A stretch of DNA of 64,000 nucleotides from Lysinibacillus fusiformis (GTDB lineage: Bacteria > Bacillota > Bacilli > Bacillales_A > Planococcaceae), in contig NZ_PDFK01000009.1 of NCBI RefSeq assembly GCF_002845985.1, forward strand, positions 1 through 64,000, in the 5' to 3' direction. The notes under the pieces were generated by a model. It saw nothing but the letters and a program-made list of their open reading frames with translations, was not told the origin of the DNA and searched no databases. Position numbers and translations under genes: made by a program. The stretch's first letter is position 1. Each line of letters starts with the position of its first letter. Positions 4,129 through 45,152 of the stretch are shown here, piece by piece.

Positions 4129-5022
4129 TTATGCTTTTTCGCCTGCTACCGAAAGCCAGGTTACACAAACAAGCATAACGAAAACACCTATTAATTGCCA
4201 AAAACCTAAAGATGTACCGAATACAATGACTGAAATAACCATTGCTGTTAATGGTTCGATACTGGAAAGGATACTCGTCTCCACTGCTGTAATATATTTC
4301 ATACTACTTAAAAACAGAATAAAGGCTACTGTTCCAAAAAATATTAATGCCACGACTAACATAAGTATCTTAAAATCTGTTAAAACAACCCATTGGTTGG
4401 ACTGCCACACACGGCTCACTAAGCCTAATGTTAAACCACCTACCAGCATGCCCCAGCCAACTACTAATAGCACACTCCACTCCTTCATTAAGCGTGCAGG
4501 ATACAGTGTGTAAAATGCAAATGTTAAGCCTACTGCTATACCCCAAAGCAAGGCTTTTGGACTAATAAGCAAACTTTCAAACGAAGCGTTCGTTAGTAAT
4601 AGAAATAACCCTATAAGGGTACCAATAATCCCTAACACTTGATATTTTGGTGGCCATTTCTTTAAACTAAGAGAGACATATGCCACAACAAAAATGGGCG
4701 CTAAAAATTGTAGTAAGGTCGCAAGTACTGCGTTGCTTTCATTTATAGCAGCAACAAAAGCAAATTGTACACCTAGCATCCCTGCAATACCAAAAGTAAT
4801 GAGCTGTCTACCCCAGAGTTTATGCTGCCAAATACTAAAAATATTTTTTCCTGTTAACAATAAATATGTAAGTAGTAATATACCTGCAACCGATAAACGG
4901 ACTGTTAACATAAAGGAGACGGTCAATGGTGTATGGTTAAGTAGCCACTCCATCAAAGGGCCAGTTGCTCCCCATAACATAGCACCCGAGACAATAAATA
5001 ATATTCCTTTTAAACGTTCCAT
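4129..5022 (-). CDS. EamA-family (DMT) transporter
   Basis: A 297-residue protein made almost entirely of hydrophobic helices, about ten, in two repeats of five as in the EamA/DMT family. The N-terminus has the family's WGATGPLMEW-type first helix. It is an inner-membrane carrier, probably exporting a metabolite; the substrate is not predictable. It sits 65 bases upstream of yfiB on the same strand with no obvious terminator between, so read-through into the exporter operon is possible. Confidence 0.8.
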   Translation of the reverse strand: MERLKGILFIVSGAMLWGATGPLMEWLLNHTPLTVSFMLTVRLSVAGILLLTYLLLTGKNIFSIWQHKLWGRQLITFGIAGMLGVQFAFVAAINESNAVLATLLQFLAPIFVVAYVSLSLKKWPPKYQVLGIIGTLIGLFLLLTNASFESLLISPKALLWGIAVGLTFAFYTLYPARLMKEWSVLLVVGWGMLVGGLTLGLVSRVWQSNQWVVLTDFKILMLVVALIFFGTVAFILFLSSMKYITAVETSILSSIEPLTAMVISVIVFGTSLGFWQLIGVFVMLVCVTWLSVAGEKA

Positions 5023-32727: not shown

Positions 32728-32748
32728 TGCGGTTGCAAGTTTTCCTCC

Positions 32749-32862
32749 CCTTATCTGCCAGATCCAAGTAAGAATCTGTAGGAATTAGCACCTTAGTAAG
32801 TTCATCACTTACTGGTTGCTGGGCATCATAGGGCCTATCCCTCCGCCGCTCTTGATAAGAGT
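32749..32862 (-). promoter_or_regulatory. SAM-I (S-box) riboswitch
   Basis: Read on the minus strand, the region shows the S-box core in order: CTTATCAAGAG at the P1 start, GGCGGAGGGA, GGCCCTATGATGCCCAGCAA, AAGGTGCTAATTCC, and GGCAGATAAG closing P1. Together with the downstream attenuator and metY, this is a clear SAM-binding transcriptional off switch. Confidence 0.95.
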
Positions 32863-42569: not shown

Positions 42570-42647
42570 CATTTTTTTAGCAATAATTACTGAATTTTCA
42601 ATTTACATAAAGGGTTTAAGCTCTAAACTCAAATTGAGGTGAACGAT

Positions 42648-43610
42648 ATGAAAGAAATTGCCTTAGGCATTTTAGCTTCTCTTTTCTTTGCCGTGACTTT
42701 TATTTTAAATCACGCAATGGAAATGCAAGGTGGCAGTTGGCTATGGAGTGCATCACTAAGATTCTTTTTCATGCTACCCTTTTTACTTATCATTGTCTTT
42801 TATCGCAAAGGCTTTTCACAGCTTTCAGGTGAAATGAAAGCACAGCCTATAGCTTGGTTACTTTGGAGCTTTGTTGGATTTGTTTTATTCTATGCACCAT
42901 TAACCTTTGCCGCAGCGTTTGGTCCAGGTTGGTTGGTTTCTGGCACATGGCAATTTACAATTGTTGCTGGTGTATTATTAGCTCCCCTCTTTGTTTCAGT
43001 TATTGCGGGTAAAACAATACGTCAAAAAATACCTTTCATATCTCTTCTAATTTCATGTGTCATCTTAGTAGGTATTCTACTTATACAAATACCTCATGCC
43101 CAATCGGTTTCGTTTAGAAGTTTAATGCTCGGTATTTTACCTGTCATCGTCGCAGCATTTGCCTATCCTCTTGGTAATCGCAAGATGATGGAGATTTGCG
43201 GGGGACGGATTGATACTTTCCAGCGAGTACTTGGTATGACCATTGCTTCAATGCCAGCATGGATCATCATAGCTATTTATGCCAGTCTTACAGTTGGACT
43301 GCCCTCAGCAAGTCAGATGTTCCAATCATTACTCGTAGGAATTAGTTCAGGTGTCATTGCAACAGTATTGTTTTTCATAGCAACCGATCGTGTAAGAGAC
43401 CATCAAGGGAAACTAGCCGCTGTGGAAGCAACCCAATCAACAGAAATTTTATTTGTTATTATCGGTGAGGTTTTATTATTAGGTATAGCCTTCCCTAGCC
43501 CTATTGCACTTGCAGGTCTGGGCGTCATCATCGTAGGTATGCTATTACATAGTTACTATACTATGATCATTGGGAAAAAAAATGCTGTTCAACAGAATAT
43601 ATCTTCCTAA
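42648..43610 (+). CDS. Multidrug-resistance efflux transporter, EmrE/DMT type
   Basis: A 320-residue protein with about ten membrane helices, matching the multidrug resistance efflux transporter branch of the DMT superfamily (AAAFGPGWLVSGTWQFT and AAVEATQSTEILFVIIGE). Exporter of unknown substrate. The ATG at 42648 lies after TTGAGGTG with good spacing; an in-frame GTG inside that site was not used. A short aacagtcc/gggctgtt hairpin and T-run (43609-43634) end the transcript. Confidence 0.78.
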   Translation: MKEIALGILASLFFAVTFILNHAMEMQGGSWLWSASLRFFFMLPFLLIIVFYRKGFSQLSGEMKAQPIAWLLWSFVGFVLFYAPLTFAAAFGPGWLVSGTWQFTIVAGVLLAPLFVSVIAGKTIRQKIPFISLLISCVILVGILLIQIPHAQSVSFRSLMLGILPVIVAAFAYPLGNRKMMEICGGRIDTFQRVLGMTIASMPAWIIIAIYASLTVGLPSASQMFQSLLVGISSGVIATVLFFIATDRVRDHQGKLAAVEATQSTEILFVIIGEVLLLGIAFPSPIALAGLGVIIVGMLLHSYYTMIIGKKNAVQQNISS

Positions 43611-43656: not shown

Positions 43657-43828
43657 AACAAAAAAGACGACTCCATCCTATTAAATAGAATGAGTCGTCT
43701 GAGATTTTCACGTTCCCAAAAAATGAGGGGGGTTTTAGGAGCGTAATCATGAACTAGCAAACTTCTGGAGAAAAGTAGCTAAAGTTCATCCTCTCTACAC
43801 TGTATTGTAGCGGAGGAATAATCTTTAT
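43657..43828 (-). ncRNA. Candidate Fur-regulated small RNA (FsrA-like in concept)
   Basis: A transcript of about 170 nt with no gene of its own, in a gap between two convergent genes. A sigma-A promoter overlapped by a perfect Fur box lies upstream on the minus strand, and a Rho-independent terminator ends it. The RNA would have a 5' hairpin (43790-43816, CTACA/TGTAG core), a second imperfect hairpin (about 43745-43790, gaac..tagc / gcta.gttc), and a single-stranded C-rich stretch, CUCCUAAAACCCCCCUC (about 43725-43741), before the terminator stem. C-rich unpaired segments are how iron-sparing sRNAs such as FsrA bind G-rich ribosome sites. An 11-codon ATG frame inside has no ribosome-site spacing. 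FsrA homology is not claimed. Confidence 0.65.
43665..43700 (-). terminator. Terminator of the candidate sRNA
   Basis: On the minus strand agacgactcattctat pairs with ataggatggagtcgtct (one mismatch region) around a short loop, followed by TTTTTTGTT. Confidence 0.85.
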
Positions 43829-43830
43829 AC

Positions 43831-43863
43831 GATAATGATAATCATTATCAATTAAATTGTCAA
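43831..43863 (-). promoter_or_regulatory. Fur box overlapping a sigma-A promoter
   Basis: GATAATGATAATCATTATC at 43831-43849 is a perfect 19-base Fur box. On the minus strand TTGACA (43863-43858), a 17-base spacer and TATCAT (43840-43835, five of six) form a promoter whose -10 and spacer lie inside the box. Transcription would start near 43828 and run away from the DUF4395 gene; neither neighbouring coding gene can be its target. Confidence 0.8.
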
Positions 43864-43891: not shown

Positions 43892-44323
43892 TTAAAAAGA
43901 TTTTTTTAATGAACGACGGTACTGCCATTGCTTCAATTGAAAATGTAGAAAACAACCAATACAAAAACCTGCGATTGCGATAGATGATGCGATTGCCACC
44001 ATGCTAGTAAAGATATAACCGACAACAGCCCAATTCAACATATAACCTAACAAGCCTACCCCTAAACAAAAGCTAGCAATGCTGGAATTAAATTTTTGCT
44101 GTTGTGCATCCTCTGGTATATAAGCAGATGGGGCCTTTTTTAGAAATAGCTTACCGACACGAATAATAGGGTTATAATGGCATATAATACCCAATAAATT
44201 TGCAGTCAGTGGAATGACTAGAAGCCATGTAACCCCTGTTAGCCATGTAAAGATAACACTTAAAAGAATGATCCATTGATTCAGTCGAACGAGTGGTCTT
44301 GGAATTGCATGAGGCACTGACAT
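43892..44323 (-). CDS. DUF4395 membrane protein
   Basis: A 143-residue protein with about four membrane helices and a DUF4395-type N-terminus (PHAIPRPLVRLNQW) and CHYNPIIRVGKLFL middle segment. The role is unknown; DUF4395 proteins often sit near thiol or sulfur genes, which is not the case here. The ATG at 44323 lies eight bases after AAAGGTGG; an in-frame GTG within that site was rejected. Confidence 0.75.
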   Translation of the reverse strand: MSVPHAIPRPLVRLNQWIILLSVIFTWLTGVTWLLVIPLTANLLGIICHYNPIIRVGKLFLKKAPSAYIPEDAQQQKFNSSIASFCLGVGLLGYMLNWAVVGYIFTSMVAIASSIAIAGFCIGCFLHFQLKQWQYRRSLKKSF

Positions 44324-44377
44324 TCTAAAACCCACCTTTCAGATATGTTTAATTTATTTTACTGCATGACATTCCAT

Positions 44378-44441: not shown

Positions 44442-45152
44442 ATGCCAGCTTTAACGATGGATCAAGTTCAACAATTAAATTCCTATAGCATCTACACAGC
44501 TGAACCTAAGCGGACTTTATTTACATTAGCTGATATACATAAGGATTTTTACCATCCTGATTTTTTGAACCTCATGATGGGTATAACAGATGCCGCAACA
44601 GAAACGGCCGCTATTTCTCATTTTGCTCGCCGCTATGGTATGTTCTTTGCTATGCAATTTTATATGCTTGCCGCTTATGATGAGGTATGGGATGGCAAGC
44701 CACTCGAATTACGTTTCGATGCTGCAAAGGAATTCAATAGCTTTACCGTTGCCATGTTCGCCAATCCAAATGATTGGCGTTATGTTGAGGAAGATGAACG
44801 TCAAGCGGTCATTGAGAAAATCCTTTATGATGGCCATGTGATTGTTCAACAGCTTCGTAAAGTAACATCGATTTCCCCTCTTACCATTTGGGAAAACTTC
44901 TTTGGTTATTTGCTATGGCACTATCATGTTTTGTTATCTAATCCAGGCTTGGCCGATCAAGCCATGGACGATATTGAAGCTTTAGAAAATCCAGAAACAT
45001 GGGCACGCTTCTCAAATAAATCTTGGTGGGCGCAATATACAGGCTGTCAGAGCCCTACGAATTTAATCAATATTCCTGTTAGAAAATCTTGTTGTTTTTC
45101 TAAAGATATCCCTGGTTTAATGGCCTGTGGCTTTTGTCCAATGAAGAAATAA
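44442..45152 (+). CDS. FhuF-like siderophore-iron reductase ([2Fe-2S])
   Basis: A 236-residue protein whose last 20 residues hold CCFSKDIPGLMACGFC, exactly the CC-x10-C-x2-C cluster motif of FhuF-type ferric-siderophore reductases. The preceding helical domain (about 60-200) with WENFFGYLLWHYHVLL is consistent. It should bind a [2Fe-2S] cluster and reduce siderophore-bound Fe(III) in the cytoplasm to release iron. It lies next to the perfect Fur box and candidate iron sRNA, though it has its own promoter. Confidence 0.78.
   Translation: MPALTMDQVQQLNSYSIYTAEPKRTLFTLADIHKDFYHPDFLNLMMGITDAATETAAISHFARRYGMFFAMQFYMLAAYDEVWDGKPLELRFDAAKEFNSFTVAMFANPNDWRYVEEDERQAVIEKILYDGHVIVQQLRKVTSISPLTIWENFFGYLLWHYHVLLSNPGLADQAMDDIEALENPETWARFSNKSWWAQYTGCQSPTNLINIPVRKSCCFSKDIPGLMACGFCPMKK

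Follow-up and report, generated by a model that had tools for sequence, protein, structure and literature searches.

Several bacteria are known to carry small RNAs (sRNAs) that spare iron under the control of Fur. FsrA of Bacillus subtilis (RF02273) represses sdhCAB and citB, with FbpABC as helpers, and its homologs are stated for Bacilli, Staphylococci and Listeria (PMC12871923). It is 83-84 nt long and is laid out as one hairpin, an unpaired C-rich linker and a terminator. IsrR of Staphylococcus is also Fur-controlled; at about 180 nt, it combines C-rich hairpin loops with a terminator and acts on ribosome sites. PMC9410917, from which this description comes, equates isrR with tsr25 (RF02578), rejects orthology between IsrR and FsrA or the others, and adds that some species carry prrF and ryhB in duplicate. 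Farther afield, NrrF of Neisseria is a Fur-controlled RNA that represses succinate dehydrogenase and cytochrome bc1 (PMC5586341), and PrrF1 and PrrF2 of Pseudomonas are Fur-controlled RNAs encoded in tandem. In the open-licence literature we found no iron-sparing RNA for the group of bacteria studied here, no paper naming both FsrA and Lysinibacillus, and no description of the RNA reported below.

We analyzed a 64-kb stretch of Lysinibacillus fusiformis DNA (the window), in which the original prediction had placed a Fur-repressed sRNA in a gap between converging genes. The candidate RNA (Table 1) resembles FsrA in its apparent Fur control, its Gram-positive host, its C-rich segments and the presence of sdhC, an FsrA target according to PMC12871923, among its putative targets; however, its sequence and layout are different. 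It resembles IsrR in length and in having C-rich hairpin loops and a terminator, but not in sequence, in the loops themselves or in gene neighborhood, the isrR gene lying between arlR and pgpB. With NrrF it would share control by Fur and two target complexes, although NrrF belongs to a distant bacterium and was compared for homology through an Rfam scan of the window alone. On sequence grounds, we file the RNA as a new family of a known functional kind.

Table 1. Positions of the predicted RNA gene, its parts and its neighbors in the window
Feature	Position	Strand	Remarks
EmrE/EamA-type gene	42639-43610	+	other flank, ends at gap
Predicted small RNA, about 165-169 nt	43660-43828	-	start placed from the -10 hexamer
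Rho-independent terminator stem	43665-43701	-	predicted fold; then six U (43665-43660)
H3 hairpin	43710-43746	-	fold and covariation (helices 6-7, ~96% of cells paired)
H3 loop CCCCCCUC	43725-43732	-	proposed anti-Shine-Dalgarno seed; five-C run in 40/41 matches
H2 hairpin	43750-43789	-	predicted fold and covariation (helices 3-5)
H2 loop segment CUUUUCUCCA	43766-43775	-	near-invariant; complementary to GGAGAAAAG-type ribosome sites
H1, 5' hairpin	43790-43816	-	predicted fold and covariation; none seen in shortest relatives
19-base Fur box	43831-43849	.	minus strand GATAATGATTATCATTATC, plus strand GATAATGATAATCATTATC
-10 hexamer TATCAT	43835-43840	-	within Fur box
-35 hexamer TTGACA	43858-43863	-	TTGAC also 5' of 40/41 matches in other genera
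DUF4395 gene	43892-44335	-	between RNA and FhuF-like gene in the window
FhuF-like siderophore-iron reductase gene	44442-45152	+	divergent conserved neighbor; TIGR03951

As originally described, both neighboring genes end at the gap. The Fur box within it is perfect over its 19 bases; its plus-strand sequence, GATAATGATAATCATTATC, is what we take to be the classical Fur consensus. No other site in the window comes within three mismatches, and shuffled sequences average 0.06 such sites. The minus-strand promoter TTGACA-17-TATCAT (43863-43835) matches the consensus at 11 of 12 positions and overlaps the box as had been claimed, with its -10 hexamer inside it. Promoter-like sites as such are not enriched (8 versus 6.5 expected in the 1.9 kb scanned). 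A Fur box over the RNA's own promoter is one mark of the class of Fur-repressed iron-sparing sRNAs, and the sequence of this locus has that arrangement.

A folding energy of -53.9 kcal/mol was predicted for the 169-nt RNA, compared to -31.3 (sd 3.7) for shuffled sequences (z -6.07), and none of 200 shuffles did as well. Three hairpins (H1, H2 and H3) and a long terminator stem followed by six U make up the predicted fold. It thus contains what had been expected of an RNA of about 170 nt, namely a 5' hairpin, an exposed, putative anti-Shine-Dalgarno stretch (CCCCCCUC) and a Rho-independent terminator that would end the unit. A simple terminator scan did not list this stem, though the predicted fold contains it; in a consensus fold of 38 sequences, eight terminator pairs are retained, five of them with double changes.

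Two covariance models were used to look for relatives. R1 describes the core, without the Fur box and terminator, and was run at E up to 0.01; R2 takes in more distant copies and was run at E up to 0.1. In an alignment of 49 members that was fitted to R1 and is hence biased toward its structure, 92.5% of cells are paired versus 73.0% after shuffling, and 306 cells carry double changes versus 82.9; not one of 500 shuffles reached either value. Changes on both sides occur in 27 of 36 pairs, and pairing falls to 40.5 or 51.8% when the partners are shifted by one column. Alignment A1 excludes the partial copies L033 and L042 and two duplicate rows. While the stems covary, the loops CUUUUCUCCA and CCCC(C)CUC are nearly constant, the H2 loop segment being the most constant part of the RNA. 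The shortest forms (L348 and L349) show no H1 and retain H2, H3 and both loops. As modeled, then, the RNA is predicted to be free-standing, structured, terminated and non-coding, as befits the class.

Could the locus encode a short peptide, alone or beside an RNA role? In alignment A3, an 11-codon frame (MNFSYFSPEVC in Lysinibacillus) is open in all seven Lysinibacillus rows, five of which begin it with ATG. However, the frame is shifted in L012, 13 of the 49 aligned family cores lack any ORF of at least 9 codons, and conservation tracks the stems and loops. The original prediction had raised the prospect of a conserved peptide here; since none is kept across the 49 cores, we rejected peptide coding and give this explanation scarcely any credence.

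By blastn, the RNA is present in 31 of 31 Lysinibacillus genomes, with a best E below 1e-60 in each. R1 matched 79 of 250 family genomes, spread over 12 of 19 genera, and R2 raised these figures to 106 genomes and 14 genera. R2 was also run over 398 genomes of the class, a set that contains family members; all 12 matches fell within the family. We take the family of our genome grouping to be the Planococcaceae of GTDB; NCBI taxonomy places most of the genera involved in Caryophanaceae and Lysinibacillus in Bacillaceae. Two class-level R1 matches outside the family, G458 and G568 (E 0.002), have neither a Fur box nor a C-run and were dropped; both were assigned to Staphylococcus on the strength of RsaOG in G458 and G044. 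A named pattern scan comprised 62 stretches from genera that include Lysinibacillus, Kurthia, Caryophanon, Viridibacillus, Rummeliibacillus, Psychrobacillus, Paenisporosarcina, Metasolibacillus and Metalysinibacillus; three of the eight stretches inspected (L129, L154 and L168) lack a full Fur site and were judged to be chance matches.

Of the 50 matches that R1 gave outside Lysinibacillus, 41 were inspected with their flanks and two more are L040 and L041. A Fur-type box lies directly 5' of every one of the 41, an independent check because R1 excludes the box. Compared to TGATAATNATTATCA, 16 of these boxes have no mismatch, 15 have one, 8 have two and 2 have three. UUUCUCC (TTTCTCC in the DNA) is found in all 41 matches, and TTGAC and a run of five C are each found in 40. 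Loss of the promoter and hairpins in sister species, which would have spoken against the original prediction, was not seen: sister species and other genera alike retain the promoter, the Fur box and the hairpins.

Could the RNA instead belong, in diverged form, to the FsrA or IsrR family? The promoter logic and C-rich segments are shared, IsrR also has C-rich hairpin loops, and the wide range stated for FsrA homologs would leave room for such a relative. An Rfam scan of the window returned no family at gathering score for the RNA, and four sub-threshold matches at E up to 10. For PrrF (RF00444), the only overlap was a match of 13.9 bits, versus a cut-off of 90, over the Fur-box promoter. The FsrA model had no match in the window at E up to 10, and across 61 genomes its sole match above cut-off was in a genome of another family. 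The tsr25 model, at its gathering cut-off, did not match the window, L031, L087, L118 or L348; among the loci tested, it matched only isrR itself, at L189, a locus that we found through its neighbor genes, as a pattern search for isrR gave nothing useful. With filters off, the isrR locus scored at most 9.8 bits with R1 and 13.4 bits with R2, and the FsrA locus scored 5.6 and 7.1 bits, no better than unrelated stretches. Homology to FsrA or IsrR was therefore not found with either model, and since both models score these loci as noise, the covariance results give no support for counting the RNA among the FsrA homologs of PMC12871923. Moreover, FsrA is an 83-nt RNA with its C-runs outside helices, and isrR does not adjoin an FhuF-like gene. 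Membership in either family is, in our judgment, quite improbable. The original prediction had left a choice between the genus's own iron-sparing RNA and a new one; as the FsrA model does not match, the RNA appears to be new and not FsrA. If so, the RNA would be a further, apparently unrelated Gram-positive solution beside FsrA and IsrR. Rfam also reports the Staphylococcus sRNA S414 near isrR (L189, 918-1092, minus strand) and, elsewhere in the window, a SAM riboswitch (32748-32861, minus strand, 91.8 bits).

By NCBIfam, the gene beyond DUF4395 is a match to siderophore-iron reductase FhuF that lies under the cut-off (E 1.4e-9), and a Pfam search of its product gave no match. The homologs inspected carry a C-terminal CC-x10-C-x2-C motif, which we take to be the FhuF iron-sulfur signature. 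At every one of the 41 inspected matches in other genera, an FhuF-like gene is found upstream of the RNA in divergent orientation. At 19 of these, no DUF4395 match intervenes and the starts of the RNA and the FhuF-like gene are 65-367 nt apart; at the other 22, a DUF4395 gene separates the two, as in the window. In Lysinibacillus, the gene was found at 28 of 30 loci (L001-L030). The two loci without it, L012 and L014, are extra copies, and the same genomes have the gene at L034 and L032. Given this pattern across the family, the convergent gap seems to descend from an arrangement in which the RNA and fhuF formed a divergent pair controlled by Fur.

The claim that no coding gene can use the Fur box thus holds in the window but not in those relatives where the FhuF-like gene starts close by. 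Perhaps, then, the box chiefly serves that gene, with the RNA arising as a by-product? The 19 loci with closely spaced starts would suit such an arrangement. Yet the RNA comes with a promoter of its own, covaries strongly and keeps its loops fixed, a DUF4395 gene intervenes at 22 of the 41 matches, and several extra Lysinibacillus copies away from an FhuF-like gene retain the Fur box, promoter and loops. We regard a by-product as highly improbable.

To look for targets, the H3 loop was paired against the ribosome-site region of 1148 predicted genes, in a scan of the window and a further 1.17 Mb of its 4.58-Mb genome. Of the top 31 genes, 30 were annotated (one was omitted), and 6 of these encode iron-cofactor proteins, versus 0 of 30 comparison genes, the latter being 30 of 40 genes from rank 116 on rather than all genes, with three siderophore- or B12-type transporter parts among them that were not counted as iron-cofactor proteins. 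The six are the Rieske protein QcrA, endonuclease III, two dihydropyrimidine-dehydrogenase-type subunits from one gene cluster, spore photoproduct lyase and AddB; their iron cofactors are in part presumed, and several family matches in this test, such as that of QcrA, lie under the family cut-off. Fur was also among the top 31. A motif-defined class of 14 genes, which takes in Fur and some probable zinc proteins, ranked only modestly higher for H3 (p = 0.037) and not higher for H2 (p = 0.35). Full co-folding, a method that cannot form loop-loop contacts, put qcrA at rank 48 of 1148 and would put sdhC at 287, poor placings that count against these targets.

A GGGGGG run no more than 22 nt from the start is rare, occurring in 10 of the 1148 genes. 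We compared the sdhC and qcrA sites in 30 genomes, comprising 15 carriers of the RNA and 15 presumed non-carriers; the single Kurthia genome gave no qcrA match. A first count of GGGGGG gave 15/15 versus 7/15 for sdhC and 14/14 versus 10/15 for qcrA. Four presumed non-carriers were then moved to the carriers, as a pattern search had found diverged copies in them. After this change, GGGGGG stands ahead of sdhC, no more than 32 nt from its start, in 19/19 carriers versus 3/11 non-carriers (Fisher p = 3e-5) and likewise ahead of qcrA in 18/18 versus 6/11 (p = 0.004), p-values that are too good because the genomes are related and the counts not independent. The motif persists in several non-carriers too. 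As a further target, fur was rejected: the window's genome has GGGGGG ahead of it, yet the motif is kept there in just 8 of 19 carriers, versus 5 of 11 non-carriers. At the sdhC loci L315-L344, the script-chosen start is TTG in 28 of 30, and GGGGGG stands ahead of it in 22 of 30.

We conclude, with a probability of roughly 80%, that the RNA is a trans-acting, Fur-repressed, iron-sparing sRNA of the bacterial family that includes Lysinibacillus, Kurthia and Caryophanon. The sequence itself shows the RNA gene with its structure and conservation, the Fur box, the neighboring gene and the conserved GGGGGG sites, and from these we infer transcription, Fur binding, pairing in the cell and target repression. 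When iron is plentiful, Fur would sit on the promoter and silence the RNA; when iron falls, the RNA would be made. Its C-rich H3 loop, and perhaps also the CUUUUCUCC loop of H2, would then pair with G-rich ribosome-binding sites of iron-enzyme mRNAs and block their translation, the main candidates being sdhC (succinate dehydrogenase) and qcrA (Rieske subunit). The RNA may first have emerged in a divergent arrangement with an FhuF-like gene that frees siderophore iron, in which case one Fur-controlled region would raise iron supply and lower iron demand together. More tentatively, and at somewhat less than even odds, we propose that this is the family's own, independently evolved iron-sparing RNA, with two separate anti-ribosome-site loops and an origin in the divergent promoter of the FhuF-like gene, and that throughout the family it has kept the sdhC and qcrA sites at GGGGGG, which drift once the RNA is lost.

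The constancy of the H2 loop might suggest another role. If the RNA bound a protein or sponged another sRNA through CUUUUCUCCA, rather than acting mainly by mRNA pairing, then one could understand why this segment is the most constant of all and yet its pairing is not enriched for iron-type proteins. Against this, the H3 loop is likewise almost invariant, and it fits the conserved GGGGGG sites of sdhC and qcrA. We consider such a role unlikely, though deserving of some weight, and favor repression by pairing of the H3 loop.

Additional copies of the RNA were seen in several genomes. The window's genome (G000) has a second one at C2:880845-881061 (L031, 4850-5013), 91% identical, with Fur box and loops intact; it lies away from an FhuF-like gene, near oxidoreductase-type and permease-type ORFs. 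Caryophanon has tandem pairs (L087, L091 and L095) spaced 234-242 nt apart, which recall PrrF1/PrrF2. Such extra copies, tandem pairs and stripped-down forms would offer a comparative system for asking why C-rich loops recur and in what way an sRNA leaves its mark on the ribosome sites it targets. Genome G006 has three copies, one of them (L033, around 4893-5017) decayed, with H2 and H3 kept and the Fur box, promoter and H1 gone. The T run of the terminator stem is lost in the extra Lysinibacillus copies L036, L037 and L042, and at L088-L090, L092-L094 and L099-L103 a pyrimidine-rich stretch (e.g., ttttttcaccctttatatttttcttc) follows H3 in place of a compact terminator.
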